NCBI RefSeq assembly: GCF_015291745.1
Contig: NZ_CP030060.1
Location: forward strand, 310,001 to 374,000
Direction: 5' to 3'
Source of the DNA: Bradyrhizobium sp. CCBAU 53351
GTDB lineage: Bacteria > Pseudomonadota > Alphaproteobacteria > Rhizobiales > Xanthobacteraceae
Length of the DNA stretch: 64,000 bases
Position 1 is the first letter of the stretch. Every line of letters begins with the position of its first letter. The notes below the pieces were generated by a model, which saw only the letters and a program-made list of their open reading frames with translations, did no database searches and was not told the DNA's origin. Positions 4,796 through 61,752 of this stretch are shown here, one piece after another. The translations under genes and the position numbers were made by a program.

Positions 4796-4960
4796 GGGCA
4801 CGCGCAGAATCCACTGCACGACTGCGTGCTGTTTGTCCTTCACGGTATCACCTTGGGCCGACGCAAGAAATCAGGGGGAAAGATCGACTTGCAGCGTCCG
4901 TGGAAGCCAGAGAACGACCGTTTGAAGCCGGTCACCTTTATCTATCGTCGCAACAGCTGA
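4796..4960 (+). pseudogene. Possible C-terminal gene remnant, unrecognised
   Basis: A stop-free stretch after a TAA at 4793 encodes about 54 residues including PLHDCVLFVLHGITLGRR and KIDLQRPWKPENDRLKP before a TGA at 4958. The residue composition looks protein-like and no start codon is evident, so it is probably the tail of a lost gene. The rest of 4658-5073 shows nothing recognisable. Confidence 0.25.
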
Positions 4961-5073
4961 TCGTTTTCCGCTTTAGTATTCGCCATCAATGGCGATCGAG
5001 CCCAATCGCTGGATGCAGCGCAAAGAGGGTAGGGGACGGATCACCCAGTTTTCCGTTCGGCCTCGACAGCGTT

Positions 5074-6349
5074 CTACAACAGCGGAGCATCTAGGCTGGG
5101 AATCTCCGGCATGGCCTTGCCGGCAATTGCCTGCAGGTCGCCGACCATGCCCACGGTCGAATCGATGACGGCCAGGATTTGGGTTTCCCGCTTGGCCCAT
5201 TGGCCGGCCCATAAACTTGCGCTCCTTGTCGAGATCCTCGCGCATATCGTTGAATTTCTCAACGACAGCTTCGACCCGCTGTCGAAACTTCGTGCCTGTC
5301 AGGTAGTGATAGACCTGCTCCATCTTGGTCTGCTGGCCCTGCTGAACGAGGCGTGAGCTGCTCACGTCGATCAGACCCTGGCGGAGCGCCACGGCGACCG
5401 GCAATGCGCAACGCGGATGAGCCACCCATACGCCGTCGACGAGGTCAAATTGCTCGATTTGTTTCGGCAGCGCGTGGGAGATGATCAGAGCGACGTCGGC
5501 GCCGGAACGGCGCTGGTCGTCACGTAATTTGGCGAGCCACACGTCACTCCATGCCTTGGTGCGTTTAGTTTCCCAAAGGATGATGCCGGCAGATTGGCCG
5601 ATAGCACCATTTACTTGCTGAATTACGTCCGCCCCGAGCTCACCTTTTCCCACCGGCTCAATCGAATCTGTCGGAAAGCGTCCGCGCAGAAGATCTTCGA
5701 GCTCGAGTTCGAGCACTTCCCCTTGGGATTGCTGTGATCCCTGCTCGGCCTTTCGCTTAAGTTCCTCGATCGTGCGCGTCATCGACTCGATGGTCTGGTC
5801 TTTCTCGGCAACGCGCAAGCGCGCAGCCTCGTCGGCTTCGTGCCTGGCCTTGATCTGGATTTCGCTGATTGAGGCCTGCACGCGCTTCTCTATTGTCAGG
5901 TCGAGTTCGCGCTTTTCCTCTTCGAGTGCGCGCTGCTGTCGCATCAGTTCGGCTTGCTGTTTTTGGGCCTCGGCAAGCTTTGCGTTGTTGGTAAGCAGGT
6001 TGGCTCGCAGCTCCGCAGCTTCCGCTTCCTTCGCCTGCAGCTCGGCGGCGGCCGCCTCTCGCGCCTTCTTGCTTTCGGCCGCGACCAACTGGGCACGTTC
6101 GGCGGTCAATCGCTTCGCAACGTGATCCTCGATTTGCTCGCGGTCCTTAGCGACCTGCTCGCGTTCCAGCCGCAGTGCCTCTGTCTTACGCTCCATCTCT
6201 GCATCTTTGCTGGCCAGCTGCTGTTGAAAGCGCTGACGGGTTTCAGCGAGGAGGGGAGCGGCCAATGACTCCGTCAGACGGATCTCGTGATTGCAGTTGG
6301 GGCAATGTAGGGTCGCCTCGTGCGAAGCGCCGGTTGCTTTGAAACTCAT
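5074..6349 (-). pseudogene. DUF2130 domain protein, copy 1, frameshifted by one base
   Basis: The protein opens with MSFKATGASHEATLHCPNCN (a CxxC pair), then about 200 residues of Glu/Lys/Ala-rich coiled coil. The DUF2130 domain follows, with LRGRFPTDSIEPVGKGELG, an IILWETKRTK strand (E-x-K) and LRDDQRR. Against the intact copy at 33158-34471 it has one extra G at 5202-5203. After KFMGR the reading frame therefore leaves the family sequence; the true C-terminus (ILAVIDSTVGMVGDLQAIAG) lies one frame over and ends at 5074. Without the shift the protein would be about 425 residues. DUF2130 proteins have no settled function; the E-x-K strand suggests a nuclease-like fold. The change is homopolymer length, so sequencing error is possible. 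Confidence 0.8.
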
Positions 6350-6587
6350 GAATTCCCCATCATCGTTGCAACCGGATTCAACATGATCTGTGCGTGATTG
6401 CGATGTCGCTCGACTTCATGTCCACATACGCGTCGTCGATTTCGACCTTGGCCGGCGGGTTTTCCACCGACACGTCGATCTACCCGAACGCGTGCACGAG
6501 CAGCCTCGCACGAATGTAGTCCAGAATAGAACAAAATAGGAACGCGCGTCAACTTTGGATCCCGAGGTGAGTTTGTATGACGACGAT

Positions 6588-6668
6588 TTTACTTAGTCTG
6601 GCCATGGGAAATGGATAGAACTTAAACCTTGGATATAGTTTGAATATGCGCTAGTTTACTTAGTATGG
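6588..6668 (+). promoter_or_regulatory. Direct repeat TTTACTTAGT at the AbiEi start
   Basis: TTTACTTAGTCTGG at 6588-6601 and TTTACTTAGTATGG at 6655-6668 are near-identical direct repeats 67 bases apart; the second contains the ATG of the AbiEi gene. The same element precedes the truncated AbiEi copy on the minus strand near 34804-34816. No Shine-Dalgarno sequence is visible, so translation may be near-leaderless. An antitoxin operator is a reasonable guess. Confidence 0.35.
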
Positions 6669-7462
6669 CTGAGCAAAAGGACAGAAAGCTAAACAGGCTC
6701 GAAAGGACCCTTCCGCAGGGACTTCTGGTCGATGCCGCCTGGATGGAACGACATGGATATTCCACCAGCTTGCGCAGCCAATACGTATCGGCCGGCTGGC
6801 TCGTTCAGCCGGCGCGGGGAACCTTCAAGCGCCCGCTCGGTGAACTCTCCTGGCAGGGCGCCGTCGTGTCACTCCAGCGATTGCTCGGCTCCGACTTCGT
6901 CGTTGGCGGACGCACCGCCATCGAAGTGCAAGGCTTCGGCCACTACCTGAGCCAGACGGGTCCTTCGACCATACATCTATACGGAACGCGGTCTGCTCCC
7001 GGCTGGCTCGGCAAACTTCCGCTCAAACAGAAATTCCGCGTTCACCGCACGCAAAGCCTGTTCAAAACGCACGGGAGCCTGCCCACATCAGAGTCGGGGA
7101 CAACGCGGGAAATACCGGGACCATTCGACTGGCCTCTCACGGTATCGACGCCCGAACGCGCGTTTCTCGAACTGCTCGACGAATTGCCCCGCCACGAAAG
7201 CTTCCATCACGTCGATGCACTGGCGGAAGGCTTGAGGAGCCTGAGCCCCCGGCGGCTGCAAATGCTTCTGAACGACTGCAAAAGCGTCAAGGTCAAACGA
7301 TTGTTTTTCTGGTTCGCGGAGCGACATCAGCACGCTTGGCTCAAACAGATCGACAAGTCGAAAGTCAATCTCGGCACGGGAAAGCGCATGCTCGTCAAGG
7401 GCGGCAAACTCGACACCAAATACCTCATAACCATCCCAGACGACCTCAATGCCCCTGTCTGA
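6665..7462 (+). CDS. AbiEi-type antitoxin/regulator (AbiEi_3-like)
   Basis: 265-residue protein beginning MAEQKDRKLNRLERTLPQG. The N-terminal ~90 residues look like an AbiEi_3-type winged helix (LLVDAAWMERHGYS, then GWLVQPARGTFKRP), followed by the AbiEi effector domain with VVGGRTAIEVQGFGHYL. Role by family: antitoxin and transcriptional repressor of the adjacent toxin. It overlaps the toxin gene at 7449 by 14 bases, so the two are translationally coupled. A 5' fragment of a close copy lies on the opposite strand at 34640-34804. It is intact. Confidence 0.8.
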   Translation: MAEQKDRKLNRLERTLPQGLLVDAAWMERHGYSTSLRSQYVSAGWLVQPARGTFKRPLGELSWQGAVVSLQRLLGSDFVVGGRTAIEVQGFGHYLSQTGPSTIHLYGTRSAPGWLGKLPLKQKFRVHRTQSLFKTHGSLPTSESGTTREIPGPFDWPLTVSTPERAFLELLDELPRHESFHHVDALAEGLRSLSPRRLQMLLNDCKSVKVKRLFFWFAERHQHAWLKQIDKSKVNLGTGKRMLVKGGKLDTKYLITIPDDLNAPV

Positions 7463-8369
7463 AAAATATCGGCATCAAGTGGCCTTGTTGATCGAGACGA
7501 TCCCGTTCGTCGCGGCGGAGCCCGATTTTGCGCTCAAGGGTGGCACCGCCATCAATCTCTTCCACCGAGATATGCCGCGCCTATCGGTCGATATCGACCT
7601 GACATATCTGCCGGTGGCTCCGCGTCCCGAATCTCTTGCGGCGATAGATGCGGCGATGAAGCGCATGACAGAGGCCATAAGGAAAGGATTGCCGGGCGCG
7701 CGGCTGACGGAAGTCGTCAATCCCCGTGAAAAGATCGTCACCAAGCTGACCGTCCAGAAAGGCGACGCGCAGATCAAGATCGAGATCACGCCGGTGATCA
7801 GGGGCTGCGTCTTCGAGCCGGAGCTGCGCGACGTGTCGCCGAGCGTCGAAGAGACGTTCGGCTTCGCGCAGATGAAAGTCGTTTCGTTCGCCGATCTATA
7901 CGCCGGCAAGCTTGTCGCGGCGCTCGACCGGCAGCATCCGCGCGACCTCTTCGATGTCCGCGATCTGCTCGCCAACGAAGGCATCACGGACGATCTCCGC
8001 AAAGCGTTCATTGTCTACCTCATCAGCCATGACCGGCCGATCTCCGAGGTCGTGGTTCCTCGTCGCAAGGACATCCAGCACGAATTCACGCACGGCTTTG
8101 AGGGCATGACCGCCGATGAAGTGACCCTGGACGAGTTGCTCAAAACCCGGGAAACGCTGATCGCCGAAATCGCGGGAAAAATGCGGCAAGCTCGCAAGGA
8201 CTTCCTCATGGGATTCAAGCGCGGCGAGCCGGATTGGAACCTGCTAGGCGTCCCTGACGCAGCGGACCTGCCGGCGGTGCGCTGGAAGCAGATCAATCTG
8301 GACAAGCTTCCTGCCGAGCACAGGGCGACGCTCGTCGCGCAGCTCGAGAAGGTCTTGCGCAATGCCTGA
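7449..8369 (+). CDS. AbiEii/AbiGii-type nucleotidyltransferase toxin
   Basis: 306-residue toxin with the minimal nucleotidyltransferase signature: GGTAINLF (residues 31-38) and RLSVDIDLTY, whose D48 and D50 should bind metal. The middle part (KIEITPVIRGC, FADLYAGKLVAALDRQHPRDLFD) matches the AbiEii family. In characterised members the enzyme modifies a cellular target, for example tRNA 3' ends, and halts growth after phage infection. It starts inside the antitoxin gene, as usual for the pair. Its last ~50 codons plus 120 downstream bases are duplicated at about 16385-16670. It appears complete and is the best candidate for a working AbiE pair at the left end. Confidence 0.85.
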   Translation: MPLSEKYRHQVALLIETIPFVAAEPDFALKGGTAINLFHRDMPRLSVDIDLTYLPVAPRPESLAAIDAAMKRMTEAIRKGLPGARLTEVVNPREKIVTKLTVQKGDAQIKIEITPVIRGCVFEPELRDVSPSVEETFGFAQMKVVSFADLYAGKLVAALDRQHPRDLFDVRDLLANEGITDDLRKAFIVYLISHDRPISEVVVPRRKDIQHEFTHGFEGMTADEVTLDELLKTRETLIAEIAGKMRQARKDFLMGFKRGEPDWNLLGVPDAADLPAVRWKQINLDKLPAEHRATLVAQLEKVLRNA

Positions 8370-8490
8370 GGTCGGAGGAGGGGATCTCAGTCGAGCACGC
8401 TCGTAGCAACTTGTTGAGAGAATTTTTGGGGTACGCCCGCCACCCAGCGAGCCCAGAGCTTGCGGGCTTCAGCTCAGCCGCCTATCGAAC
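8214..8490 (+). repeat. Direct repeat A: AbiEii 3' end and flank
   Basis: The last 156 bases of the AbiEii gene and about 120 bases beyond its stop are repeated, imperfectly, at about 16385-16670 in the same orientation. Shared blocks include GAGCCGGATTGG, CAGATCAATCTGGACAA and CGCCACCCAGCGAG-type sequence. This indicates an ancestral second AbiE locus or a segmental duplication about 8 kb away. Confidence 0.65.
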
Positions 8491-8501
8491 AGTGGACGCG
8501 C

Positions 8502-8672
8502 CTACCTATGCGTGCCGTACACGTTTCCGGTGCTTGGATTTCGGTAGGAGCCGCCTTTATGAGAAGAGCCCGAGCCGCCGATGTAAGTCCCGCCGTGGCT
8601 AGAGGTATGATGGTCTCCACCATACGACACGCGGCCGCCAAAATGGCTACCACCTATTCCAACAGCAGACGC
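8502..8672 (-). pseudogene. Small glycine/histidine-rich secreted protein, decayed
   Basis: The minus strand encodes a 56-residue stretch rich in G, S, H and Y (HFGGRVSYGGDHHTSSHGG and then YRNPSTGNVYGTHR) ending at a TAG at 8502. Such Gly/Ser/Tyr-rich tails belong to small exported proteins common in Bradyrhizobium. The expected signal peptide is absent in frame: a TGA at 8673-8675 sits just before an ASAVG-like cleavage region. Probably a broken gene. Confidence 0.4.
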
Positions 8673-8977
8673 TCAGAAATGCTCGCTGTTGTGTTTGTCG
8701 GATTTGCGCATTGAGGGCATGAACCGCAATATCGTTCTCGTCTTTATCACCGCCTCTGGCGGCAAGAAGATGCGCGAGGCAGGCTTGGCGAGATTTGCCC
8801 ACATCGTCTTTGCCGATCGTAGCTTGCTCGAGAAAAGGCGCGCGATGCGCCTATCCGCTGAACGCGCGTCGATGTTGCAAGCCGGATTCGCCACCTCGGG
8901 TGAGAAGCCTGATCATGGCGACCCGGGTCGGCGCCGAGTATGCCGAAATAGATTATTCAAGGTAGACGGAGGGGAGG

Positions 8978-9289
8978 GTGAAAGCCTGACTCGGTATTGG
9001 TGCGCTCCTTCTAGCGCTCATCATTGGCGCGCAGTTCATCACCATCTTTGTTGTCCAGCCTATTGGCGCGTTACCCGAGGGGCGGACCGTCGTCATAGCT
9101 CGCCTTACAAAGCTGAACTTTATCGACAGCGCGGACGCCTTTTGCGACCGAACAATGGGTGGTGTCAGCCTCCTGTGCCAGGCTGCCGTCCTCGGCAAGG
9201 TCACGAAGGAAGGTCCCATTCTCCTGCGTCTTCCTTATTCGGCGACCCTTTATCAAATCAGCACCGGCGGCAAACACTACGACCGATAG
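8978..9289 (+). pseudogene. Small membrane protein with a stop at codon 4
   Basis: A strong Shine-Dalgarno run (about 8966-8976) precedes GTG AAA GCC TGA at 8978. The TGA at 8987 interrupts an otherwise continuous frame of 104 codons to the TAG at 9287. After the stop it reads LGIGALLLALIIGAQFITIF, a single N-terminal membrane helix, then VVQPIGALPEGRTVVIARL and a Cys-containing periplasmic-looking domain. A CGA-to-TGA change would explain the stop. No alternative start with a ribosome site is obvious. The function is unknown to me. Confidence 0.5.
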
Positions 9290-15617: not shown

Positions 15618-16292
15618 GTGGCATCAGTCGCGCGATATGTCGTTGAGCGGTCGCCGGACCAGGTCCGGCTCGCTTTCAAGAGCGTCCTCGAAATTTGCAA
15701 GGAAAGGAATATCTCCAGCGTGACGTTGGTGGTGCCGCAGAAGGGCGGCTTCGATCGGACCATCGTGGCCGAATTCCTCGGACCGAACGTCGTAAAGGCG
15801 CTCGTCAAGGGGCAACCCGTTCTGGTGGCGCAGGGCGTTCAGATGAAGTTGGAAAGTGCGCAGACCTCCCGGGGGAGTTGGTCAGATGGGCTGCTGATCG
15901 GCGGCCACATCTCGGACAAAGACATGAACAAGCTGGACGATGCGATCGGCGCGCAAGCGATCGTCTACCTTCCTTGGAACGATACCGACGGCAAAAACTG
16001 GCGAGCGACATGGGGAGCTCAGATCGTAGGAGCCACTACTGCACCGGCACCGACCGTTAGTTTGCCCGAGCCCGTGGAGGAGGCGCTGCAGAGCCTGACC
16101 CAAGCCGTCAATTTGGGTACGGGTCTCAATCATCCCTCAGACAAGAAACACGCAGAGCGCACAATCGCGCAGCTGCGTCAGGAAGGGCATTCGTTTGATC
16201 CAGTTGAGGTCCGCCGATGGGCTCAGCGGAACGGCTGGTCGTCAAGTGCGGCCGCAGACCTTGAAAAGGTAGCTCGCAAAGCATTCCGATAA
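15618..16292 (+). CDS. Hypothetical protein downstream of CBASS
   Basis: 224 residues from a GTG at 15618; I do not recognise the family. The first ~130 residues look alpha/beta (ARYVVERSPDQVRLAFKSVL, then ISSVTLVVPQKGGFDRTIVA and LIGGHISDKDMNKLDDAIGA). A Pro/Thr linker follows near 140. The C-terminal ~60 residues form a small helical domain (AERTIAQLRQEGHSFDPVEV, WAQRNGWSSSAAADLEK) like those that cap DNA-binding or adaptor proteins. A 120-base gap from the exonuclease stop makes membership of the CBASS operon uncertain. Confidence 0.55.
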   Translation: MASVARYVVERSPDQVRLAFKSVLEICKERNISSVTLVVPQKGGFDRTIVAEFLGPNVVKALVKGQPVLVAQGVQMKLESAQTSRGSWSDGLLIGGHISDKDMNKLDDAIGAQAIVYLPWNDTDGKNWRATWGAQIVGATTAPAPTVSLPEPVEEALQSLTQAVNLGTGLNHPSDKKHAERTIAQLRQEGHSFDPVEVRRWAQRNGWSSSAAADLEKVARKAFR

Positions 16293-16384
16293 GGTCAGTG
16301 TTGGATTCTAGTTTGGGATCCAGAGAAGGCAGCCGTTGAGAAGAATATATCGATGTCTCCTGCGCATTCGCCGTGATGGCGGAC

Positions 16385-16670
16385 CTCAAGCGCGGCGAGC
16401 CGGATTGGAGCCTGCTGGGCGTCCCTGGCGCGGCGGACCTGCCGGCTATACGCTGGAAGCAGATCAATCTGGACAAACTGCCTGCCGAGCACAGGGCGAA
16501 GCTCGTCGCGCAAGTCGAGAAAGTCTTGCGCAACGCATGGGGTCGGAGGAGGAAACCCTCCATTTACCTGGCGGCCATGCGATGGCAACTTGTTCAGACG
16601 GCTTCTCCAGGGGAGACGCTGCCACCCAGCGAGGCCGGAGCGCGCCTCAGCTCAGTCGCCCATCGCGAGC
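16385..16670 (+). repeat. Direct repeat B: AbiEii C-terminal fragment
   Basis: The sequence encodes KRGEPDWSLLGVPGAADLPA, then RWKQINLDKLPAEHRAKLVA, the C-terminus of the AbiEii toxin at 7449-8369. The stop codon is lost (TGG instead of TGA after RNA). The match extends past the gene end to about 16670. No toxin catalytic region is present, so this is a duplicated, dead 3' fragment. Confidence 0.7.
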
Positions 16671-16699
16671 CTCGCCGCGACCTGTCTCGTTGTCAGCAT

Positions 16700-17165
16700 G
16701 AAATTTTTGAATCGTTGGCGCTGATCGATTCATTTATTTAATTGGACGGTCGATTCGGCGGCTGCGATTCTGGCGCATGTCCGAACTCACCGTGCAATAT
16801 CTCGTGCTCGAGCGTCGCGATCCGGCCCGTAACATGGCGCGGTTCTATGTGCTCACGATTGAGCCGACGCTCTTTGGCGATACGGCATTGGTGCGCGAAT
16901 GGGGCCGTCTCGGTGGGCGCGGTCGACGGCGACTCGATCTGTTCAAGCCGTCGAGGCTCTTGAGTCCTGGCTCAGGCGCAACGCCCGTCGCGGTTACGTC
17001 CAGCGGCACTTTCCGGGCTCGGAGCCGGCGTGCGACACGCCACAAGTCGGCTGATCTGGACAAAATGTCAGTGGAAGTATATCAAAGTAATCCGAGATCA
17101 TACTCGACCATATTCCAAGAATTGCGAAAGTATTCCATAATTAATTATGCGAATTTAAATAGTGT
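16700..17165 (+). repeat. WGR-locus direct repeat, copy 1
   Basis: About 460 bases are repeated at about 51755-52220 in the same orientation: the leader TTCATTTATTTAATTGGACG, the WGR gene, and a trailing palindromic CATAAT...ATTATG segment. The two copies lie 35 kb apart and bracket most of the window. Confidence 0.65.
16777..17054 (+). pseudogene. WGR-domain protein, copy 1, 13-base deletion
   Basis: Starts MSELTVQYLVLERRDPARNM and continues through DTALVREWGRLGGRGRRRLD, the WGR motif of a small nucleic-acid-binding domain. Relative to the copy at 51832-52101, 13 bases are missing after the LDLF codons (around 16940). The true C-terminus (QAVEALESWLRRNARRGYVQ) is therefore pushed into another frame ending at 17054. 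As read, translation runs on with unrelated residues to 17202. WGR domains occur next to PARP and DNA-repair domains and also as stand-alone proteins in rhizobial islands. Confidence 0.7.
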
Positions 17166-17438
17166 CATGGTTTCAGTAGGAGAGATCAACCGAACTCCAT
17201 AATAGAAATGCTCCATCAGTTGCTATTCAAGCGAGGCGTGGATCCGTGCGGCGCCAGATCGCCGGGAATGAGTGAAACAGATCGAGTCGACCGCGCTGTT
17301 GCCCACAAGCAGAGCATGTGTCATTCGACATGGTCACCGGCTCCCGCCATCCGGAACTGACCCCCCGCATTGCCTCACTAAAAATGTTACCGGACAACTT
17401 CTCTGCCGTGTCTGGGGCGGAGCTGCCGAATCAGTTCG

Positions 17439-18431
17439 GTGGCAGGTATGGCAGGGAAGATCAGCATGCGCGCAAAGCGCGAGATCAGATCAGCGGGTGG
17501 ACCGAATGCTTTCCGCTTGTTGTGCGTGAAGCAGCTCTTGTGGTCGAAGCTCTCGAGCGCGCAGAACCTATTTCCCTGGCCCGTTCGGGGGCTCGATTTT
17601 GACAACGACAGCGCCTTCATGAACGACACGGTCGTGTCGTGGTGCCGTTCTCACGATGTCGAAGTCACTCGTTCCAGGGCCTACAAGAAGAACGATCAGG
17701 CATTCGTTGAACAAAAGAACGGAGCTATCGTTCGCCGCCTGGTGGGCTACGGGCGGTTTGAAGGCATTGATGCCGCCCGTTCATTGGTTCGCCTGTTTGC
17801 GGCGGCCCGGCTATACATCAATTTCTTCCAGCCCTCGTTTAAGCTGAAGGAGAAGCACCGCGAAGGTGCCAAGATGATCAAGTGCTATCTTCCTCCCGCT
17901 ACGCCGTACGAAAAAGCATTGGTCCACCCGAGGCTCAATGAGGCATTCAAAGGTCGGCTGCGGGAGATTTACCGGACGCTTGATCCTGTGGCATTGCTGG
18001 CACAGATGCGGGACGCTCAGAATGAGTTGGGTAAGCGTGTCGATCAACGGGCTGGAAAGTCAGCGATGACTGTCGCGCAGGGGCACAGTGATTTGGCGGC
18101 CTTTGCCCGAGAGCTCGGCGATGGTTGGAAACAGGGTGAGCAGCGAGGCATTCATCGGCGTCGCTATGTGCGGCGCAAGCCTGTGCCACGTCGGCCATCG
18201 ATGCTCGACCCATACATTCCCATCATCGAGGAATGGCTCGCCGCAGCTCCGCACTTGTCTGCGGTCGATCTTCTCTCCCTGCTGGAAGCGCATGCGCCCG
18301 GTCGGTTCAGCGGCCATCAGCGGCGCACGGTGCAGCGATTGGTGAAGAATTGGCGATCAAAGGCCGCTCGACAGCTCATCAGCAACACAGAGATCACACT
18401 ATCGGTCCAAGCTTCGCGCCTTCGTATTTAA
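17439..18431 (+). mobile_element. Partial transposase with integrase (rve) core
   Basis: The frame carries LDFDNDSAFMNDTVVSWCRS and AYKKNDQAFVEQKNGAIVRR, the second Asp and the Glu of a DDE integrase core. A long C-terminal DNA-binding tail follows to 18431. The first third, including the first catalytic Asp, is missing. The homology begins near 17525, and the sequence before it (17170-17520) is unrecognised. Type: ISNCY/IS481-like by layout. It is not self-mobile. Confidence 0.65.
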
Positions 18432-47425: not shown

Positions 47426-47617
47426 GGCCGATCTCCATCTGGAAAAGCGAGGGAGATCTAGACGGTGGACAATGCCCTCCAGTCGCACAACCGCGCGAAT
47501 CAGACTCTATCTTGAGAGTCCACTAGATTGTAGAACAGAAAATGAACATTTCATACGGGATTCCCGAGCCTCGGTGGATCTCCGATGCCACAGCGTGCTC
47601 CGAAACTAGAGATTGCA

Positions 47618-48601
47618 ATGACTTTTCAGATACTTGCTCTCAGCGGCGGTGGCTTTCGAGGCCTGTTCACAAGTTCGGTCCTGGCGCGCCTGGAGGAGCA
47701 GGCAAAGCGCCCCCTTCACGAATGCTTTGACCTGATCTCGGGGACATCGGCAGGCGGCATTATCGCCCTCGGTCTGGCGATGGGAAAGAAGGCCGAGACG
47801 ATTCAGGAGATGTTTCTCAAGCACGGGGAAGAGATATTCCCCCGCGGGGAGACGCCGAAAAGCCGGCTGGCGCAAATGCAGGCCCGGTGGTTCGAGTGGC
47901 GACATCCCAAGTACGACGGTACGGTGCTCCGGAGCAAGATCGAGGGCGTGCTCGGCGCCGACGCCAAGCTCGGCGACGCGAAGACGCGCGTGCTTGTTCC
48001 GACGGTCAACATGACCAAGGGAAGCGTCCAGATGTTCAAGACCGCGCATAATCCGAGGTTCATGACCGATTACAAGGTGAAGGCCGCGGACATCGCCATG
48101 GCGACGGCGGCCGCGCCGCTGTACTTCCCGATGGCCGAGATCGGGAACAGCTATTTCATTGACGGCGGCGTGGTCGCGAACGCACCTGACCTTTGTGCGC
48201 TGCACGAAGCTGTCCAGTTCCTGGATCAAAAGATCGAGGACGTATCGGTGATGAGCATTGGCACGACCACCAGCAAATTCTCGCTGCCGACGTCGGCGGG
48301 ACGCAATTTCGGCCAAAGGGACTGGCTCGAGAACAACCGGCTTCCATCGACCATCATTTCCTCGCAGCAACAGCTGGTCGATTTCATGCTCAAGCATCAG
48401 CTCGGCGATCGCTACATCAGGTTCGACGAGCAGCCCTCCGCCGAGCAGATTTCCGATCTCGGGATGGACCTCGCGACCGAGAGCCGGCGGAAGACCCTGC
48501 TAGGGATGGCGGACGGTTGCTATCAAGCGCTGTGCAACGATAGGCGCGTCATCGATATGTTGGCACATCGGCCTACCAAGCCGACGTTCTATCACGTGTG
48601 A
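47618..48601 (+). CDS. capV: CBASS patatin-like phospholipase effector (CapV)
   Basis: 327 residues from the ATG at 47618; an in-frame ATG at 47585 would add 11. The oxyanion motif is LSGGGFRG (10-15 core), the nucleophile GTSAGG (Ser44), and the catalytic Asp is in YFIDGGVVANAP (Asp182). CapV is activated by 3'3'-cGAMP and destroys the inner membrane. It is divergent from the cyclase gene. The short start is preferred because family members begin close to the first strand. Confidence 0.88.
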   Translation: MTFQILALSGGGFRGLFTSSVLARLEEQAKRPLHECFDLISGTSAGGIIALGLAMGKKAETIQEMFLKHGEEIFPRGETPKSRLAQMQARWFEWRHPKYDGTVLRSKIEGVLGADAKLGDAKTRVLVPTVNMTKGSVQMFKTAHNPRFMTDYKVKAADIAMATAAAPLYFPMAEIGNSYFIDGGVVANAPDLCALHEAVQFLDQKIEDVSVMSIGTTTSKFSLPTSAGRNFGQRDWLENNRLPSTIISSQQQLVDFMLKHQLGDRYIRFDEQPSAEQISDLGMDLATESRRKTLLGMADGCYQALCNDRRVIDMLAHRPTKPTFYHV

Positions 48602-52398: not shown

Positions 52399-52959
52399 TC
52401 AAGCCGTGAAGTCGACCTTGTCCGTCCTTCCCAAGGCCGAACGTAAACGGAAGTGGCTTCTCAGCTTGCCAGTTCCCTCCTCGGCCACCCGCTTGCGAGC
52501 GAGGGTCCGACAGGCCTCCAGAACGTCCCAAGGGATCTCTCCGAGGTCATCGGCGACCTCGACAAATGACCGCCAAGCGGCGGACGACAATCGTTTCGAC
52601 ACTGGCTCGAGCAAATCGTCCAATGCAATACCAGCGTCTGTTTCCGCATCATTGTCTGATCCGAACAGATAAATACGTCCGCGCCAGATGATGTAGTGAC
52701 TTTGACAGCCGGTATCGCGCCAAACAGAAGGAAACACACTCATTTTTCCTCCTTCCGCATTGTAGATACGCCAGGCGGGCCCACTTCTTGGATCGAGGTT
52801 GACTGGAAATCGTTCGCCGCAACCGCAAGGACAGGACAACACAAGCCAACGTGGACCACCGCGGTTGACCAGGACAGCATCGCCGGGTTTCGACAGGTGC
52901 TGGTCCGCCTCGCCTCGTGAAGAAACCTTCGCCCGAAAGTTGAGAATGACGATGCCCAT
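52399..52959 (-). CDS. DUF6527-type zinc-binding protein of the Ubl operon
   Basis: 186 residues. RWLVLSCPCGCGERFPVNLD is a CxCxC-type metal site. It is followed by GPAWRIYNAEGGKMSVFPSV and WRDTGCQSHYIIWRGRIYLF, the DUF6527 pattern. The C-terminal ~90 residues are helical and may be extra. This family recurs at the end of prokaryotic ubiquitin-like operons, where a RING-like or substrate-adaptor role has been guessed. It is last in the operon, 9 bases after the kinase-like gene. It is intact. Confidence 0.65.
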   Translation of the reverse strand: MGIVILNFRAKVSSRGEADQHLSKPGDAVLVNRGGPRWLVLSCPCGCGERFPVNLDPRSGPAWRIYNAEGGKMSVFPSVWRDTGCQSHYIIWRGRIYLFGSDNDAETDAGIALDDLLEPVSKRLSSAAWRSFVEVADDLGEIPWDVLEACRTLARKRVAEEGTGKLRSHFRLRSALGRTDKVDFTA

Positions 52960-52968
52960 GAATTCGCC

Positions 52969-54540
52969 TCACTGCGGTGCGAAGTTGTTGTTGAGAATGC
53001 GCTCTGCTAACACGTACGCAGCGGCGCGACGCTCATCCTCAGGACCTTTCAGGTTTGGATCTTTGGCCGCCTTGTTCAGAAGGGCCAGTGCAAGAGCCGC
53101 TCCGTATTGATCTGCTGACGCGACACGCGCGGCATAGTGCCGGATCTGTCGCACGGCTTCGTGAAACCAGCGATGCGGATCGCGCGGATCACCGTGCCCG
53201 AGCAGCATGTCGAGCGGCTTACCACCATACGGTTGCTCAATCGACCTCCACCACTCATCGAAGGACCAGAGCTCATGATTATCGAAGGCATCGACCAATA
53301 GGCTGGCCTCCAAGGTCGCTATGTCCCACACCAGCGGTCCATCCTGATTGGCATAGAAGTCGATGACGAGCGCCTCGTGCCCCCTCACCTGAACATTGTC
53401 GACGTGGAGATCGCCATGAATCTTTGCGAATAACACCGGAGAACTTGCGCAGTATTCGAACAATGTAAACAGTCGATCGCGGTCGCATCTCGAGCCGATC
53501 GATCGCGCCCTTTGCATCCGGCGCCGGTCAAATTGCTTTGGAAAGCGCGGACCCAGGGTCTGCGAAAGTGGCGTATCTCGGCGTTCGATATTTCGATACC
53601 ACGCTTGCAGCGTTCGATCGAACAGGCACGATATTGCCGGCCCGGCCCGGCCGCTCCGTGCGGCAAGCCTTAGACTCTCGCAGGATTCGATGAGATCGCC
53701 GACCAGCACACCGCGTGTCGATCCGAGACAGCATAAATCGTAGTTCAATCGCGGCCCGAGATTGAAAGGCACGTATTTCTCGACATTCAATTGGTAATTC
53801 TGAAATTCTTGAAAGATCTTGCTGCGATCACCGAGTTTGACAAAACGCGGCATAGTATGAAAGGCGCCGAAGACCGGGTAGGCACGGTATACGGCAGCCC
53901 CGGACCGGCCTTCGGTCATTGGACTGAAATGCACGGCCGTGTAACCTCTGAATGCGCGCTTCAGAAGGACTTGGCCAACACCAGCGTCGTTCTCTCCAAA
54001 CTCGCATTCGGGAGCGAAGCTGAAACTGACAGACTCTTGTACGGCCTCGCCGGGGAGATGCCGAACCAAGAAGTTGGCCGCTTCCGACCAATTGGCAATG
54101 GGCGACAAGATGGTGACGTGCGGCAGCGGGGGGAGAGGCATCGGATCGCCCAATGATCTCTGCCACGTGAACTGATTGCGCAGGACGTCGCTCGGAAGGT
54201 TGCTGGCAAACACACGCGCCTCTTCCAGACATCTATACACTTGCGGAAGACCAGCAACGCCGAACGGCACGACAAAGACGCGGCATTCGTAATCAAGCAG
54301 GTGCTTAAGGCAGCTTCGAACGATTCGCTGGAATCTTGATGGGTAATCTTGTTGCTGGACGATTACGACGGCGGCAAGGCTCGCCAACAGAGCAGGCTCC
54401 ATCGGCTGAAAAGCGGTAATCTGCTGTTGTCTGATCGTGAGGCCGCGGTCTTGAAACGGCGCCTTAGCCTCAGCCGGGGGATCGGCGCCGATCCAGCCAA
54501 CCTCCGACCGACCAAAAGCTGTAACGTCAACGATTGACAT
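52969..54540 (-). CDS. APH-like kinase in the Ubl operon
   Basis: 523 residues from an ATG at 54540 that overlaps the JAB-E1 stop by 14 bases. The N-terminal ~230 residues are unrecognised. The C-terminal half has the aminoglycoside-phosphotransferase catalytic loop FAKIHGDLHVDNVQVRG (H-G-D...N) and the metal Asp in LVIDFYANQDGPLVWDIATL. Such kinases phosphorylate small molecules or protein Ser/Thr. Finding one between E1 and DUF6527 in a ubiquitin-like operon is unusual in my knowledge. The 14-base coupled starts argue it is a true component. Confidence 0.62.
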   Translation of the reverse strand: MSIVDVTAFGRSEVGWIGADPPAEAKAPFQDRGLTIRQQQITAFQPMEPALLASLAAVVIVQQQDYPSRFQRIVRSCLKHLLDYECRVFVVPFGVAGLPQVYRCLEEARVFASNLPSDVLRNQFTWQRSLGDPMPLPPLPHVTILSPIANWSEAANFLVRHLPGEAVQESVSFSFAPECEFGENDAGVGQVLLKRAFRGYTAVHFSPMTEGRSGAAVYRAYPVFGAFHTMPRFVKLGDRSKIFQEFQNYQLNVEKYVPFNLGPRLNYDLCCLGSTRGVLVGDLIESCESLRLAARSGRAGPAISCLFDRTLQAWYRNIERRDTPLSQTLGPRFPKQFDRRRMQRARSIGSRCDRDRLFTLFEYCASSPVLFAKIHGDLHVDNVQVRGHEALVIDFYANQDGPLVWDIATLEASLLVDAFDNHELWSFDEWWRSIEQPYGGKPLDMLLGHGDPRDPHRWFHEAVRQIRHYAARVASADQYGAALALALLNKAAKDPNLKGPEDERRAAAYVLAERILNNNFAPQ

Positions 54541-55873
54541 TTTGAGCGAGACGGCCTTGGAGAGCCAATCCATCGCCCCTTGCCAAAACGCCTGCCCGCG
54601 AGCAGACGATGCAGTCCTGGACGGGCTCACCCTTGACCGACCGGAGGCGACTTCTCAGACCATCATACAGAAGATGCCGCGCCGGCGATGGCACGCCGAC
54701 AACAGCGGACAAGAACATGGTGATGGCGAGCGAGGTAATAGTGCTGTTGATCGAGATCACCGCGGGCGCAGGTTCACGAGCGCCGACGAGATAAGGATCC
54801 TGCTTGCGCTCGGCCTCCGACATCATGTCGCGGCGGACCTCGTTACCGTCCAAGAGGCCACCGCAGGTGAGGCAAGCCAATCCAGGCGACAGCATCTGGG
54901 CGCGGCCGGTAATGTGAGTGATCTTGCCCCCCTTAACGGCGATAACCGTCCCGATATCGATGCAAGGAATGAGATATTGATAAGCTAATTGCTGAAGGAC
55001 GGCTCGACTACCGTGTGAATCGGTGCAGCAAAACAGCACATCAACGTCTCGCAATTTCTTTGCGGTTTCGACGAAGACGACGTTCTCTTGAAAAGAGGTG
55101 ACTACGGCACGAGGTTGAACTGCGCGAATATATCGCTCGGCCACCGCGACTTTGGCCTGCCCCGTATCGGCAGATGCGGACCCTGCCAAGCGGTTCAAAT
55201 TAGTCAGCTCGACGTCATCTGGATCAACTAGAACGAACTCCTTGACGCCGAGGTGAGCCAATTGCTGCACGGCCAGCGATCCCGTGCCACCAAGTCCCAC
55301 GATCCCCACCCTGAGGCTTTGGAGGATGCTCTGCCCGGCACGACCGAAGGCCCGAACCTGCCGATCGTAAAGATCGGAAGGGTCGTGTGATCGACTGGGA
55401 TCAAACAGGACTCGTCGATCATCCCCTACCGCAATCAGACGAAGATGTCGGTCGCTTCCAAGGTAGCGACATGCATACCCTCCGTCGCTCACAACAAGGG
55501 CCAGATGCTGCAAGTCAGGGGTTCGATGCCGAAAGAAGTGTGCGAGAACCTCCTCGCCCGCATCGTCAATGCGCGAAAACTCGGGCGCGGCCCTCCCGGG
55601 ATGGCTATGCACAAACACCAGGCTACTTTTGGTCCGCGCAGCAATCTTTGCCCACCTGGCGATGAACGCAGGCCGCAGCTCTGCTTCGAGTTGGCTGCGC
55701 CGAGTGTAGTCGTCTTCAGCGGGCACTACGACCTCTCGCACCAACACCCTTGCACGACCGTCGGCCCGAGACGTTCTGCCGCACATCAAGACCAAGCATA
55801 ACTCGGTTCGACCGCCCAGCACGGAGCGCCGGACGAAGTCGAGATCGGCAAAGGTGATGAGAAGATCGTCCAC
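54527..55873 (-). CDS. JAB-E1 (ThiF) fusion of the Ubl operon
   Basis: 448 residues from a GTG at 55873 that shares one base with the E2 stop (TAGTG). N-terminal JAB protease: SLVFVHSHPGRAAPEFSRID (H89-x-H91...S100-x-x-D103). C-terminal E1 adenylation domain: RVGIVGLGGTGSLAVQQLAH, FVLVDPDDVELTNLNRL, with DVLFCCTDSHGSRAVLQQLA and a CLTCGG pair. It would mature the Ubl by trimming its tail and then activate it for transfer to E2. The fused order JAB-E1 is known in prokaryotic ubiquitin-like systems. It is intact. Confidence 0.82.
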   Translation of the reverse strand: MDDLLITFADLDFVRRSVLGGRTELCLVLMCGRTSRADGRARVLVREVVVPAEDDYTRRSQLEAELRPAFIARWAKIAARTKSSLVFVHSHPGRAAPEFSRIDDAGEEVLAHFFRHRTPDLQHLALVVSDGGYACRYLGSDRHLRLIAVGDDRRVLFDPSRSHDPSDLYDRQVRAFGRAGQSILQSLRVGIVGLGGTGSLAVQQLAHLGVKEFVLVDPDDVELTNLNRLAGSASADTGQAKVAVAERYIRAVQPRAVVTSFQENVVFVETAKKLRDVDVLFCCTDSHGSRAVLQQLAYQYLIPCIDIGTVIAVKGGKITHITGRAQMLSPGLACLTCGGLLDGNEVRRDMMSEAERKQDPYLVGAREPAPAVISINSTITSLAITMFLSAVVGVPSPARHLLYDGLRSRLRSVKGEPVQDCIVCSRAGVLARGDGLALQGRLAQNVNR

Positions 55874-56256
55874 TATCGTGCGGGGTTTAGACGTTGCGCG
55901 ATGACGTTGACATAGGTCAGCATGTTGTCGCGATTTGGATTCCAAGATTGCAAGTGCCACGAAAACCAAGTGCCTCGCGGCTCACCCCCTGGGACCGGAT
56001 TGGCATCGTTCGAGGCGGTTGGAGCGCCGCCGTCCACCAAGCGAACAGGCCCCGGTTCCAACCAGAAGCAATCCGGTTGTGCCGAAGGATATCCCGGTGG
56101 CAGCAGAAAAATGACGGTCCCTTTAGCGATGCTCCAACCTTCTGGAAGATCGAATTCCGGAATCTCAACCAATACAGCTCCGTTGGACATCGGGGTTCGA
56201 CGCGCCAAGGGAAAATGCTGTTGGAGCGCCGCAAACTGCTTATCAATGATTTCCAT
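55873..56256 (-). CDS. E2-like Ubl-conjugating protein
   Basis: 127 residues from the ATG at 56256 that overlaps the Ubl stop by 14 bases. EIPEFDLPEGWSIAKGTVIF, LLPPGYPSAQPDCFWLEP matches the UBC-fold pattern (P-x-G-Y-P...PDCFW). The RGTWFSWHLQSWNPNRDNML segment is typical of prokaryotic E2-type proteins. C93 position by family is represented here by the DCFW cysteine, the candidate thioester residue. It is between Ubl and E1, in the order expected for charge transfer. Confidence 0.75.
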   Translation of the reverse strand: MEIIDKQFAALQQHFPLARRTPMSNGAVLVEIPEFDLPEGWSIAKGTVIFLLPPGYPSAQPDCFWLEPGPVRLVDGGAPTASNDANPVPGGEPRGTWFSWHLQSWNPNRDNMLTYVNVIAQRLNPAR

Positions 56257-56494
56257 GTCCAAATGTCGCCGGCGGCACTGCAAAAAAATGCTTGATCCGA
56301 TCGTTCAGGGGCACTGTATCTGGGTCAGCGATCGGACGATCCGGCGTGTCTCCCTGCTCTTCCAAAAAAAGCTGATAATTCGCTTCGATCTTGGCGATCC
56401 GCTTAATGTCGGCCCCGGAGAGATAAGAATGCTCGGTCTCGTATTTCACCCCATCAACGAAAAAGTGGAATTCCTTTTCTTTTTTGTCGTTCAT
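56243..56494 (-). CDS. Ubiquitin-like modifier (multiubiquitin-type Ubl)
   Basis: 83 residues with a single Ubl domain: FHFFVDGVKYETEHSYLSGA, DIKRIAKIEANYQLF, and FFAVPPATFG at the end. The family usually ends P-P-A-x-(F/M)-G. Here the glycine is followed by four residues (HGNH), so the JAB domain of the next enzyme could trim the tail to expose it. It is the first gene of a five-gene operon (Ubl, E2, JAB-E1, kinase-like, DUF6527), all coupled by overlaps or short gaps. Such systems conjugate Ubl to phage or cell proteins for defence. Confidence 0.75.
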   Translation of the reverse strand: MNDKKEKEFHFFVDGVKYETEHSYLSGADIKRIAKIEANYQLFLEEQGDTPDRPIADPDTVPLNDRIKHFFAVPPATFGHGNH

Positions 56495-59478: not shown

Positions 59479-61752
59479 CTAGATCCCAAGTCGAGCGGCC
59501 TGCGTTGACAGTTGCTCCGCCTCGGCAAGCCGATAGGGTGGGATGTCACTACGCACTGTGGCCAACAAGGACTTACAGAACGCAGGCGTGAGCTTGCCGC
59601 GGTGAATCACGACGTTTTCGCAGCCCGTCGCCGCCCGGGCGTTCTGCCACTGCTGATTATAGCCGCGTTGTTCGTTGGACTTGACGTGGCAAGCGGCGAA
59701 GTCGGCGTCATCCAGCGTCGCCAACTGGCCCGTATGTACCGGTCGCTTCGTATGGATGTGAACCCACATGGGGCTCGGCATTGCACCATTGCGCAGCGCC
59801 TTGGGTTGCAGCTTAACCTGAAACAGCACCCCTGGCTCGCCCTTTAACGCGCGCGGTAGATCGGCAGGCGCCAACTCCCCGGCCGCGCGCAACTGTTCAA
59901 GGTACTTCTGCGACGGAAAGCCGTAGGTCTTCATGCATTCAATCCTAGTCAATGCCCTTCGCTCGTCCAAAGTCTTGGCGAGCCCCTGCGCCTCGGCCCG
60001 CATCATCTTGAGTCGGACTAGCTTGCCATGCACCTCGGGCACTTGCGTTGGCGTGAGTAGGATACGTCGACCAGGCTCCGCGAGCGAACCCTCACAAGCC
60101 TGCATTTCGGCGGCCTGGGTCTGCAGGCGCTCGATCACGGCATCCACAACGTGGTCGGCGTCCTCGGGCTTCATTTGGCGGGCTTGCGAGACGGCCCGTT
60201 GCTGACCAGCCAGATCAAACTGCAAAAGTGCGTCCAACCGCTCGAGTAGGCGCGCCAGCGTCTCCATTGATGGCGGGGCCTGCCAGATCGCCAAGTGTGC
60301 CGTCGCCGAGGATGTCGCCCTCGCATGCGCCTCTTCCGCGCTCACGAGCTTCTTCGTACCCAGATCCGAGAGCACCACAACTTTGGCTGCTGGCGCCGTG
60401 GCTTTGTCGGTTGTAGCGATCTGCAGCTGCGTCCCGTCGCGTGCCGAACTCCCGGCGAGAGTGCTCGGTGTACGTTTGGCTTTACCCTTCCTGCGCGCAG
60501 AAGTGCCTTCGGCCGCTACAGCCTCTCGCGTAGCGTTGGCCGGCTTCGCAGCCCCTGCTTCGACCGCCGGTGAATTGATGGCCGACGTTTTGGGCTGTAG
60601 ATCCAGCAGCCGCATAACGTCGTGTGCAGTGACCCACGCGCTTTCCACGATCTGATGCAACAGTTTCAATGGCAGGTCGTCACCGGTCCCCTGACCCCTT
60701 AGCTTTGAAACGAGGTTGTGCACTCCCAACGCAAATTCAGAAAGCCGCTCCATAACTCCTTCCAGGACCGCGCAGTGCGCCGCGTCGAGTGCGCGTCCTT
60801 GGCTCTGTAGAACTGCGTCCTTTGTCGATATGAATGCCGGAAAAACGTCATCGATGAAAGTGCCGAGCAGGCGAGCCCGTCCGTTCTCGGCCATGAGGAT
60901 TTCCCTCGTGGCTGGGTCGAACGTGCTTTCGAGAGGCTCAATCATGATTTGTGCGAGAGCGACCTGCGATTGCAGATGCATGCACTTGGTGTGCAGTGCC
61001 CAACCGCTGTGCAGCCGCAGTGCGGCCTCGTCGGCCTGCCGCTTTTGGGCCGTTACATTGGGTAAATTAGCAGTAGCGGCGCAGACGCATTGCATCCGTT
61101 CCGAACGCAACGCCTTCTTTCCCCACCACTCCATGCAGTCCGCATAGCGGTTTGCTACGCCGGAAACCGCTCGGTTCAGTAGGTCAGAGGGAGTGTTGGA
61201 TAGCATCCGTTGGAGCACGACGGTTGCACTTTTCCTGCTCTGCTCCAAGGCGTAGATGGTCGGGGTGGCCAGAGCGTTACATTGCTCCGCCGCATGGAGC
61301 ACCTCGTCCCGGAGACCGCGAGCCTGATCGTCAGACAGAATCCTGCGCGCCTCGTGCTGGGGCAGGCTGGCGTAGTACTCCAGAACTTTTGAGCCGACCT
61401 GGATGAGCTTGTCGATCAGCTCTTGTGCCTCTGACGAGCTCCGCGCTTGCATGGCCGCCTTACTGCGAGCGCCAACTTCCGAGAGCAGGCTTTCCATTTG
61501 TCGCTTTGTTGCCTTGATCTCGTCACCCGTCGATGAAATGGGGACTGCCATATCCGAAGTTCGCGGCTGGCTGCCGACCAACGCCGCTCTATCCTGAGGC
61601 CAAGAGCGCATTCGCTCCACGATGGAATAGAAGGATTGGCCGCCCTCCCCAGCGGCGAGACTCGATTCTGAACGCAAACTGCTCGAGTCCCAAGTGCTGT
61701 CGGCTCCGGGAGCCCCAACGAGCGATTTGCCAGGCCGGCCAATACCCGTCAT
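59479..61752 (-). CDS. XopP-like type III secreted effector
   Basis: 757 residues. The Ser/Gly-rich N-terminus (MTGIGRPGKSLVGAPGADST) is typical of a type III secretion signal. A long helical body is broken by an Ala/Thr/Lys-rich linker near residues 395-440. The conserved C-terminus, MWVHIHTKRPVHTGQLATLD, SNEQRGYNQQWQNARAATG and VVIHRGKLTPAFCKSLLA, matches XopP/HLK-type effectors of Xanthomonas and Ralstonia and their rhizobial relatives. A tts box lies 43 bases upstream of the ATG. In plants XopP-type proteins suppress immunity. It is intact and has no secretion apparatus genes in the window. Confidence 0.72.
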   Translation of the reverse strand: MTGIGRPGKSLVGAPGADSTWDSSSLRSESSLAAGEGGQSFYSIVERMRSWPQDRAALVGSQPRTSDMAVPISSTGDEIKATKRQMESLLSEVGARSKAAMQARSSSEAQELIDKLIQVGSKVLEYYASLPQHEARRILSDDQARGLRDEVLHAAEQCNALATPTIYALEQSRKSATVVLQRMLSNTPSDLLNRAVSGVANRYADCMEWWGKKALRSERMQCVCAATANLPNVTAQKRQADEAALRLHSGWALHTKCMHLQSQVALAQIMIEPLESTFDPATREILMAENGRARLLGTFIDDVFPAFISTKDAVLQSQGRALDAAHCAVLEGVMERLSEFALGVHNLVSKLRGQGTGDDLPLKLLHQIVESAWVTAHDVMRLLDLQPKTSAINSPAVEAGAAKPANATREAVAAEGTSARRKGKAKRTPSTLAGSSARDGTQLQIATTDKATAPAAKVVVLSDLGTKKLVSAEEAHARATSSATAHLAIWQAPPSMETLARLLERLDALLQFDLAGQQRAVSQARQMKPEDADHVVDAVIERLQTQAAEMQACEGSLAEPGRRILLTPTQVPEVHGKLVRLKMMRAEAQGLAKTLDERRALTRIECMKTYGFPSQKYLEQLRAAGELAPADLPRALKGEPGVLFQVKLQPKALRNGAMPSPMWVHIHTKRPVHTGQLATLDDADFAACHVKSNEQRGYNQQWQNARAATGCENVVIHRGKLTPAFCKSLLATVRSDIPPYRLAEAEQLSTQAARLGI

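Follow-up and report, generated by a model that had tools for sequence, protein, structure and literature searches.

Organization of the Operon

The 64,000-nucleotide stretch of Bradyrhizobium sp. CCBAU 53351 analyzed here (NZ_CP030060.1, positions 310,001 to 374,000; hereafter the window) carries a five-gene operon encoding a ubiquitin-like protein (Ubl), an E2-like protein, a fusion of a JAB peptidase domain with an E1 activating enzyme, an aminoglycoside phosphotransferase (APH)-like kinase, and a DUF6527 zinc-site protein (Table 1). It is the kinase, and its relation to the Ubl machinery around it, that concerns us. A first-pass annotation, made from the sequence alone, had proposed this five-gene operon, and it is borne out by the intact frames and their Pfam matches. 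The same annotation described the genes as coupled by overlaps of 1 to 14 bases and a 9-base gap; the coordinates agree, with overlaps of 14, 1, and 14 bases at the Ubl/E2, E2/E1, and E1/kinase junctions, respectively, followed by 9 bases before DUF6527. The GTG start of the E1 has one base in common with the stop codon of the E2. The Prok-JAB match on the E1 scored 22.7 bits, below the cut-off of 25, and a HxHP...S..D (JAMM) motif is readable in the sequence. Two details of the annotation required revision: the 553 a.a. kinase frame it reported begins at a GTG inside the E1 gene, whereas the start that is conserved lies at position 54540 (ATG), and the unrecognized N-terminus of 230 residues comes to ~190 residues when counted from that ATG.

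Table 1. Features of the window discussed in the text (a.a., amino acids; bit scores with family cut-offs in brackets).
Feature	Coordinates	Strand	Start codon	Length	Basis
Whole five-gene operon	56494-52399	-			Five intact single frames
Ubl gene, one Multi_ubiq beta-grasp domain	56494-56243	-	ATG	83 a.a.	Pfam PF14452, 29.1 bits (24.5)
E2/BubB-like gene	56256-55873	-	ATG	127 a.a.	PF14462 Prok-E2_E, 51.1 bits (25); DCFW and WFSWH motifs
JAB-E1 fusion, BubCD-like	55873-54527	-	GTG	448 a.a.	ThiF, 132 bits (28.1)
Kinase gene	54540-52969	-	ATG	523 a.a.	TCAD9, 62.9 bits (40); APH, 23.6 bits (23.2)
DUF6527 zinc-site protein	52959-52399	-	ATG	186 a.a.	PF20137, 64.8 bits (23.6)
CBASS phospholipase gene, neighbor outside the operon	47585..48601	+			Annotation of NZ_CP022220.1

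The DNA resembles that of large Bradyrhizobium plasmids. The operon is found at an identity of at least 99% on five Bradyrhizobium plasmids from peanut roots or nodules, and the copy on plasmid NZ_CP022220.1 is identical to that of the window. A sixth Bradyrhizobium plasmid (strain 62B) carries the same five genes together at 75% DNA identity. Compared with strain 62B, the ratio of nonsynonymous to synonymous substitution rates (dN/dS) is 0.02-0.13 across the five genes and 0.08 for the kinase, these ratios being rough given a dS of 1.1-2.0. On these substitution rates, all five genes, including the kinase, are under purifying selection. Given that the five genes stand together in strain 62B, show low dN/dS, and occur together in distant bacteria (see below), the operon is not a chance grouping.

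Class of the System

Bacterial ubiquitin-like pathways have been characterized only recently and are mostly known as conjugation machines. Among solved structures, the best relative of the E1 was Citrobacter BubCD (9ea4; 128.7 bits over residues 18-387 of the 446-residue query), the E2 profile matched Citrobacter BubB (76.9 bits), and the Ubl profile matched multi-ubiquitin proteins best (9d59 and 9cd2; 47.4 bits), with BilA next (30.9 bits). As the closest solved structures are thus BubCD, BubB, and multi-ubiquitin proteins, we have assigned the operon, on sequence similarity, to the Bub type (Iyer class 6e). It combines a Ubl of the multi-ubiquitin family, a standalone RWD/BubB-like E2, an E1 with an N-terminal JAB domain, and a metal-binding protein.

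Class 6e was described as comprising a polyUbl, an RWD-like E2, a JAB-E1, and a metal-binding (zinc) protein Y (Iyer et al. 2006, PMC1779556), and the window has the same four components, with the standalone E2 located between the Ubl and the JAB-E1. From its position and motif, DUF6527 would correspond to protein Y, although the second metal-binding half of protein Y is printed there as H-x(2)-C and that of the window DUF6527 reads C-x2-H. The passages on class 6e (PMC1779556) further differ from the window in mentioning no kinase and in describing the E2-like domain as without a conserved Cys. In comparison to Citrobacter Bub, the window E1 matches BubCD over most of its length, the E2 matches BubB, and the Ubl is of the multi-ubiquitin kind; however, the window operon adds the kinase and has a Cys in place of a Met in the DCFW motif of the E2. 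Bub operons without a kinase also differ in that the C-terminus of DUF6527 is longer in the window subtype. The Bil system (BilABCD) likewise encodes a Ubl, E1, E2, and JAB peptidase in a single operon, but its JAB and E1 are separate proteins and the description consulted mentions no kinase (PMC11354881). For the E1, PADLOC returned generic E1-E2 matches and a weak BilD match (19.4 bits), and the Ubl gave a single weak match of 12.5 bits. Regarding type II CBASS (cyclic oligonucleotide-based antiphage signaling system), no CD-NTase (cGAS/DncV-like nucleotidyltransferase) was found among the five operon genes via Pfam. With Ye et al. 2026 and Gong et al. 2025 outside its scope, a search of the open-licence literature yielded no description of a kinase within Bub or 6e operons; DUF6527 was absent from the papers retrieved, and TCAD9 came up in one relevant figure legend.

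The Kinase

By its profile matches, the kinase is a TCAD9-family, APH-like protein, and the TCAD9 and APH profiles both match all 30 kinase members at E values of up to 10. These matches, together with the catalytic columns, support the kinase with an H-G-D...N loop read from the sequence in the first-pass annotation. The predicted catalytic residues in the window are G211, S213, K235, E245, H375-x-D377, N382, and D394. Across the 66 aligned rows, which comprise 31 database proteins and 35 loci and include some copies of one another, the G-loop Gly and Glu245 are present in all 66, Lys235 in 65 (Asn in L031; loci are labeled L and genomes G), and the G-loop Ser is aligned in 60, while His375, Asp377, Asn382, and Asp394 each occur in 65, with a gap in the broken copy L147. 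Given that these residues are nearly invariant, the kinase should be active. By profile, the solved structures closest to it are those of methylthioribose kinase (E 0.008) and maltokinase (E 0.034), both weak matches.

TCAD9 proteins elsewhere (PF19974) share the kinase domain, which in them is often preceded by a receiver or Clp_N domain, whereas the window kinase follows an unmatched domain and lies within a Ubl operon. TCAD9 has been tied to vWA-MoxR-VMAP systems in a figure legend (PMC10910872). Seven distant TCAD9 proteins were compared with Pfam; a receiver domain scored above the cut-off in L037, L038, L039, and L040 and below it in L109, a Clp_N domain was present in L036, and L105 displayed neither. 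A precomputed receiver annotation was present in 11 of 14 database relatives of the kinase. Since receiver or Clp_N input domains precede it in these distant relatives, TCAD9 looks like an output kinase module placed behind an input domain.

The gene directly ahead of the kinase relative encodes a HATPase_c protein in L037, L038, and L040, giving a HATPase_c protein followed by a receiver-APH (TCAD9) kinase in the Pfam matches (L037 4794-8912, L038 2801-5109, and L040 4524-8789). L037 and L040 also carry a gene for an AAA/SMC-like ATPase ahead of this pair. Such loci possibly represent an undescribed signaling or conflict system.

A degenerate receiver at the N-terminus of the window kinase was considered, prompted by an alternating pattern in the first 130 residues and by the receivers of the distant TCAD9 kinases. 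This was unsupported: the local score against the receivers was 14.9 (best of 30 shuffles, 15.0), the global score of 9.6 (best shuffle, 9.1) came with an alignment out of register, and Response_reg was absent from the families matched by the 30 kinase members. A degenerate receiver is thus no more than a lead.

A kinase encoded with Bub operons has a precedent in CapK, a DNA-damage kinase that governs 59 of the 544 Bub operons surveyed in PMC13373217, which would allow the window kinase to control expression, as CapK does through CapS, or to restrain the system, for instance as an antitoxin. CapK, however, is a regulatory HTH-STAS-GHKL protein of the GHKL fold encoded upstream of its operon (PMC13373217), whereas the window kinase has an APH-like fold, with no GHKL, HTH, or STAS domain matched by Pfam in the window protein and the 30 members, and is placed inside the operon after the E1, or in other loci at the end of the operon. 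A role in expression control or restraint is therefore improbable in our estimation.

Recurrence, Rarity, and Gene Order of the Kinase-Bearing Set

Using the kinase to scan 84,980 species genomes, we identified at least 33 loci. Among the 33 matches listed, 26 (L009-L034), from Proteobacteria and Acidobacteriota, have the whole set of Ubl, E2, E1, DUF6527, and kinase, and a kinase relative stands alone in L035-L041. L009 reproduces the window operon exactly and L010 almost exactly; neither is independent of the window. Among plasmid records, ten were matched by the window kinase, and one more, a remnant, was added by a second kinase query. Six of the ten regions (L003-L008) were inspected, including one on a Deinococcus plasmid, and all five genes were present in each, with the E1 and kinase of L006 each spread across two frames. 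The E1 query matched 262 plasmid records; among the best 60, 11 were at an identity of at least 44% and the next was at 34%. A kinase match was found in 10 of these 11 plasmids, and in the eleventh (Roseomonas, L152), IS21 elements flank a remnant of E1 and DUF6527 and no kinase was detected.

We also noted several incomplete or extended copies. A remnant of kinase and DUF6527 genes on a plasmid of Bradyrhizobium sp. 187 (L153, 6782-8266) lies close to transposases, and neither Ubl nor E2 nor E1 was detected there; in L147 (genome G079, 4947-9163) the E1 and kinase of an operon copy are split over several frames, due to decay or assembly errors. The locus of the kinase operon in L034 also contains, at 15790-17590, another multi-Ubl gene and an E1 frame that runs past the end of the retrieved sequence.

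The frequency of the kinase was assessed in 197 genomes centered on G001, the nearest genome to the window, which were searched for DUF6527 and the kinase with up to 7 kinase candidates scored per genome. All 14 kinase hits with E<1e-12 were within 4 kb of a DUF6527 gene; the fifteenth (G107, E 2.8e-11) is a fragment with stops that stands alone, and 22 weaker hits were not near DUF6527. Conversely, of 61 DUF6527 hits, 14 had a kinase within 4 kb and 47 did not; the first-pass annotation had overlooked the latter. Among 30 DUF6527 loci with 1.5-kb flanks, an E1 frame was present in 23 and a kinase beside DUF6527 in seven. A second order was sampled through 300 genomes of the order of G483 (a kinase carrier and the source of L014), with up to 4 kinase candidates scored per genome; the kinase was found in 0 of the 299 further genomes at E values of up to 1e-8, and DUF6527 in 14 of them, 13 above the cut-off. 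Based on the 14 of 61 DUF6527 hits near G001 and the 0 of 299 in the second order, the kinase marks, as far as these genome searches reach, a rare subtype. The first-pass annotation would have abandoned the kinase as part of the system had it been absent from all other copies of the operon; the reverse was found in the listed genome loci (26 of 33), the strong hits around G001 (14 of 14), and the plasmids with a close E1 (10 of 11).

The gene order Ubl-E2-E1-kinase-DUF6527 seen in the window is shared by 21 of 35 kinase loci (33 distinct kinase frames). In seven others, the order is Ubl-E2-E1-DUF6527-Ubl2-kinase, an additional Ubl gene immediately preceding the kinase; in the remaining seven, frames overlap, are duplicated or broken, or occur in additional copies downstream. 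Carriage by phages or viruses was also considered and rejected, with no tblastn match in 50,697 phage records and 12 pattern hits in viral contigs, none of them a relative.

Co-Inheritance of the Kinase with Its Partners

For a comparison with kinase-less operons, 20 further regions were chosen by hand from the 61 DUF6527 hits and taken with wider flanks, 17 of them kinase-less and three with a kinase. The E1 tree comprised 46 rows from 52 loci with an E1, excluding the short or duplicate L006, L008, L009, L010, and L147, as well as L143, which is identical in sequence to L026 and on the same contig. All 29 kinase-bearing rows fell on one side of a branch (support 91/90; 94% of 200 bootstrap trees), with a long-branch warning among the kinase-less rows, which all come from relatives of G001, and where these join the rest.

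Distance matrices were compared for 28 of the 35 kinase loci (L006, L008, L009, L010, L032, L143, and L147 dropped). The matrix correlation (Mantel) was highest between the kinase and E1 (r 0.93), followed by E1 and E2 (0.90), kinase and E2 (0.89), kinase and DUF6527 (0.85), and kinase and Ubl (0.82). For each pair, 0 of 999 permutations were as high, although species kinship, which was not removed, contributes to such correlations. From these comparisons, the kinase is co-inherited with its operon partners. The recurrence of the whole set in distant bacteria also makes the kinase look like a functional component of a single, rare branch of Ubl systems.

These data bear on two further explanations. 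The APH match and the weak resemblance to methylthioribose kinase and maltokinase would suit a kinase that phosphorylates a small molecule (a nucleotide, sugar, or signal) as an effector independent of conjugation and sharing the promoter alone. However, every strong hit around G001 lies beside DUF6527, and the kinase co-varies with the E1 as tightly as the E2 does, which exceeds the need of a shared promoter; we therefore consider this unlikely. The rarity of the kinase among DUF6527 loci might also indicate a passenger gene caught in the operon. This is contradicted by the conservation of the set across phyla, the correlation with the E1, and the low dN/dS of the kinase, leaving a passenger as the least credible explanation by some distance.

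Features of the Partner Proteins

The Ubl of the window ends in a conserved FG followed by four further residues. F78 and G79 are invariant in 16 hand-picked Ubls; the second Ubl of L025, which is outside that set, has HG. At each kinase locus, the Ubl with the highest score ends at the FG or up to 4 residues beyond it, and the second Ubls up to 8 beyond, a short tail that fits trimming by the JAB domain.

Two columns with at least 80% Ser/Thr/Tyr were found in 31 Ubls of kinase operons, namely S26 (31 of 31) and T20 (29 of 31; window numbering). The T20 column bears on a rival explanation, in which the kinase regulates the pathway itself by phosphorylating the Ubl, E1, E2, or a conjugated target, comparable to PINK1, which phosphorylates ubiquitin. 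In kinase-less Ubls, the last matched domain (aligned in 11 of the 15 sequences tried, from 14 loci) has a hydrophobic residue in this column (Val in 8 and Ile, Leu, and Trp in 1 each), and the matching domain of four solved Ubls has Trp (by eye). T20 is thus a candidate acceptor site and a pointer to Ubl phosphorylation. The tight co-inheritance with E1 and E2, the overlap of the kinase gene with that of the E1, and the second Ubl gene directly before the kinase also speak for phosphorylation within the cascade. Conversely, L007 and L025 retain the kinase with Leu and Val, respectively, at this column (rows assigned by eye), the second Ubls adjoining the kinase have Val, Ala, or Ile (by eye), and Ser occupies this column in the first domain of three kinase-less polyUbls. 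The S26 column, moreover, is Ser/Thr in kinase-less Ubls too.

The DCFW and WFSWH motifs of the E2 are both present in all 35 E2s of kinase operons (31 distinct sequences). The Cys of DCFW is replaced by Met in all eight kinase-less E2s found (17 loci) and in Citrobacter BubB (by eye). As this Cys is not obviously at the canonical E2 active-site position (by eye), we make no claim of a catalytic role for it. In DUF6527, the zinc site C-x3-C...C-x2-H has invariant C43 and H88, with C47 and C85 conserved in at least 90% (18 sequences). The tail after the last zinc ligand, cut by a text pattern, measures 83-111 residues in 34 of 35 kinase loci (45 in L007) compared to 10-71 residues in 17 kinase-less loci. 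Against solved structures, DUF6527 returned designed coiled coils and one weak tRNA-ribosyltransferase match, none being a usable relative.

Genomic Neighborhood

The proteins encoded upstream of the Ubl in relatives (ten scanned against Pfam and nine against PADLOC) include WYL proteins in L013, L033, and L034 (Pfam), capH/capP matches in L005, and HTH-M78 proteins in L007 and L021 (the HTH being weak in L021), with a KfrA_N protein instead in L025. Fusions of an M78 peptidase, a UvrD helicase, and a PD-(D/E)XK nuclease were noted upstream in L017 and L031 (Pfam). CapW and CapH with CapP are DNA-damage-responsive regulators of CBASS and Bub operons (PMC13373217). In L006, L017, L020, L031, and L032, a gene of 1112-1147 a.a. 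ends within ~140 bases upstream of the Ubl frame; in L017 and L031, this is the gene of the M78-UvrD-nuclease fusion.

In the window, a 757 a.a. frame lies upstream of the operon (59479-61752). The protein of strain 62B is 91% identical, and its gene (L003 10596-12869) lies downstream of the operon on the other strand. Past the other end of the operon, a CBASS operon starts at a distance of 3.8 kb; beyond the phospholipase gene (Table 1), the plasmid annotation lists a DncV-like nucleotidyltransferase, ThiF, and Mov34. Given that this CBASS operon is close to the Bub operon on the plasmid, the region looks like a defence island.

Proposed Role of the Kinase

The explanation we tentatively place first, at less than even confidence, is that the kinase is a dedicated output enzyme that the Ubl machinery gates via the N-terminal domain of the kinase. 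Trimming by the JAB domain would leave the Ubl with its conserved FG end, the E1 would adenylate the trimmed Ubl, and the E2 would hand it on to targets; DUF6527 might assist as a zinc adaptor or an E3-like factor. The N-terminal domain would hold the TCAD9 kinase and the Ubl machinery would switch it, with the kinase either carrying the Ubl or binding it, as part of an induced stress or anti-phage response. In this scheme, Ubl maturation, activation, and conjugation are transferred from the solved Bub relatives and would proceed as in those, and an immune or stress role with induction by DNA damage or phage is suggested by the neighbors of relatives, while gating of the kinase by the Ubl is our proposal.

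The gated output is favored by the recurrence of the set, the co-variation of the kinase with E1 and E2, the intact catalytic columns, the dN/dS of the kinase, and the input domains of its relatives. Also counted in its favor were the seven of 35 loci in which another Ubl gene immediately precedes the kinase, and the upstream WYL, capH/capP, and HTH-M78 regulators in relatives.

Several observations weigh against it. The link between the Ubl and kinase activity is putative, residues 1 to ~190 match no Pfam family in the 30 kinase members, and comparison of the N-terminus with the receivers of relatives by hhalign was not significant (P 0.14 and 0.06). Most DUF6527 genes around G001 have no kinase nearby, and in the window, no WYL, HTH, or M78 match was found in three frames scanned upstream of the operon. 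The Ser/Thr site of the Ubl at T20 favors phosphorylation within the cascade instead; this pattern led us to raise the weight of that rival somewhat and to lower that of the gated output slightly. Phosphorylation within the cascade consequently comes close behind, as a serious competitor that we also hold at well under even confidence, and the preference of APH-fold kinases for small molecules was counted against it. Regarding the setting, protection against phage has yet to be shown for Bub operons according to PMC13373217, and a review is more positive, stating that such systems appear to be mainly phage defence (PMC12687455).

A more specific form of the gated output, in which Ubl attachment or binding itself switches the TCAD9 kinase and Ubl signaling replaces the His-Asp relay as the kinase input, is speculative, and we would put its chances low. 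If true, the output of a Ubl pathway would be a kinase effector that is elsewhere joined to two-component receivers. The kinase-bearing operons offer two testable marks: within the sets compared, one Ubl site has Ser/Thr only when the kinase is present, and one E2 residue, Met in the solved Bub protein, is Cys in these operons. As a stable subtype, they would provide a concrete test case for the wiring of tagging to phosphorylation in bacteria, as in eukaryotic ubiquitin signaling.

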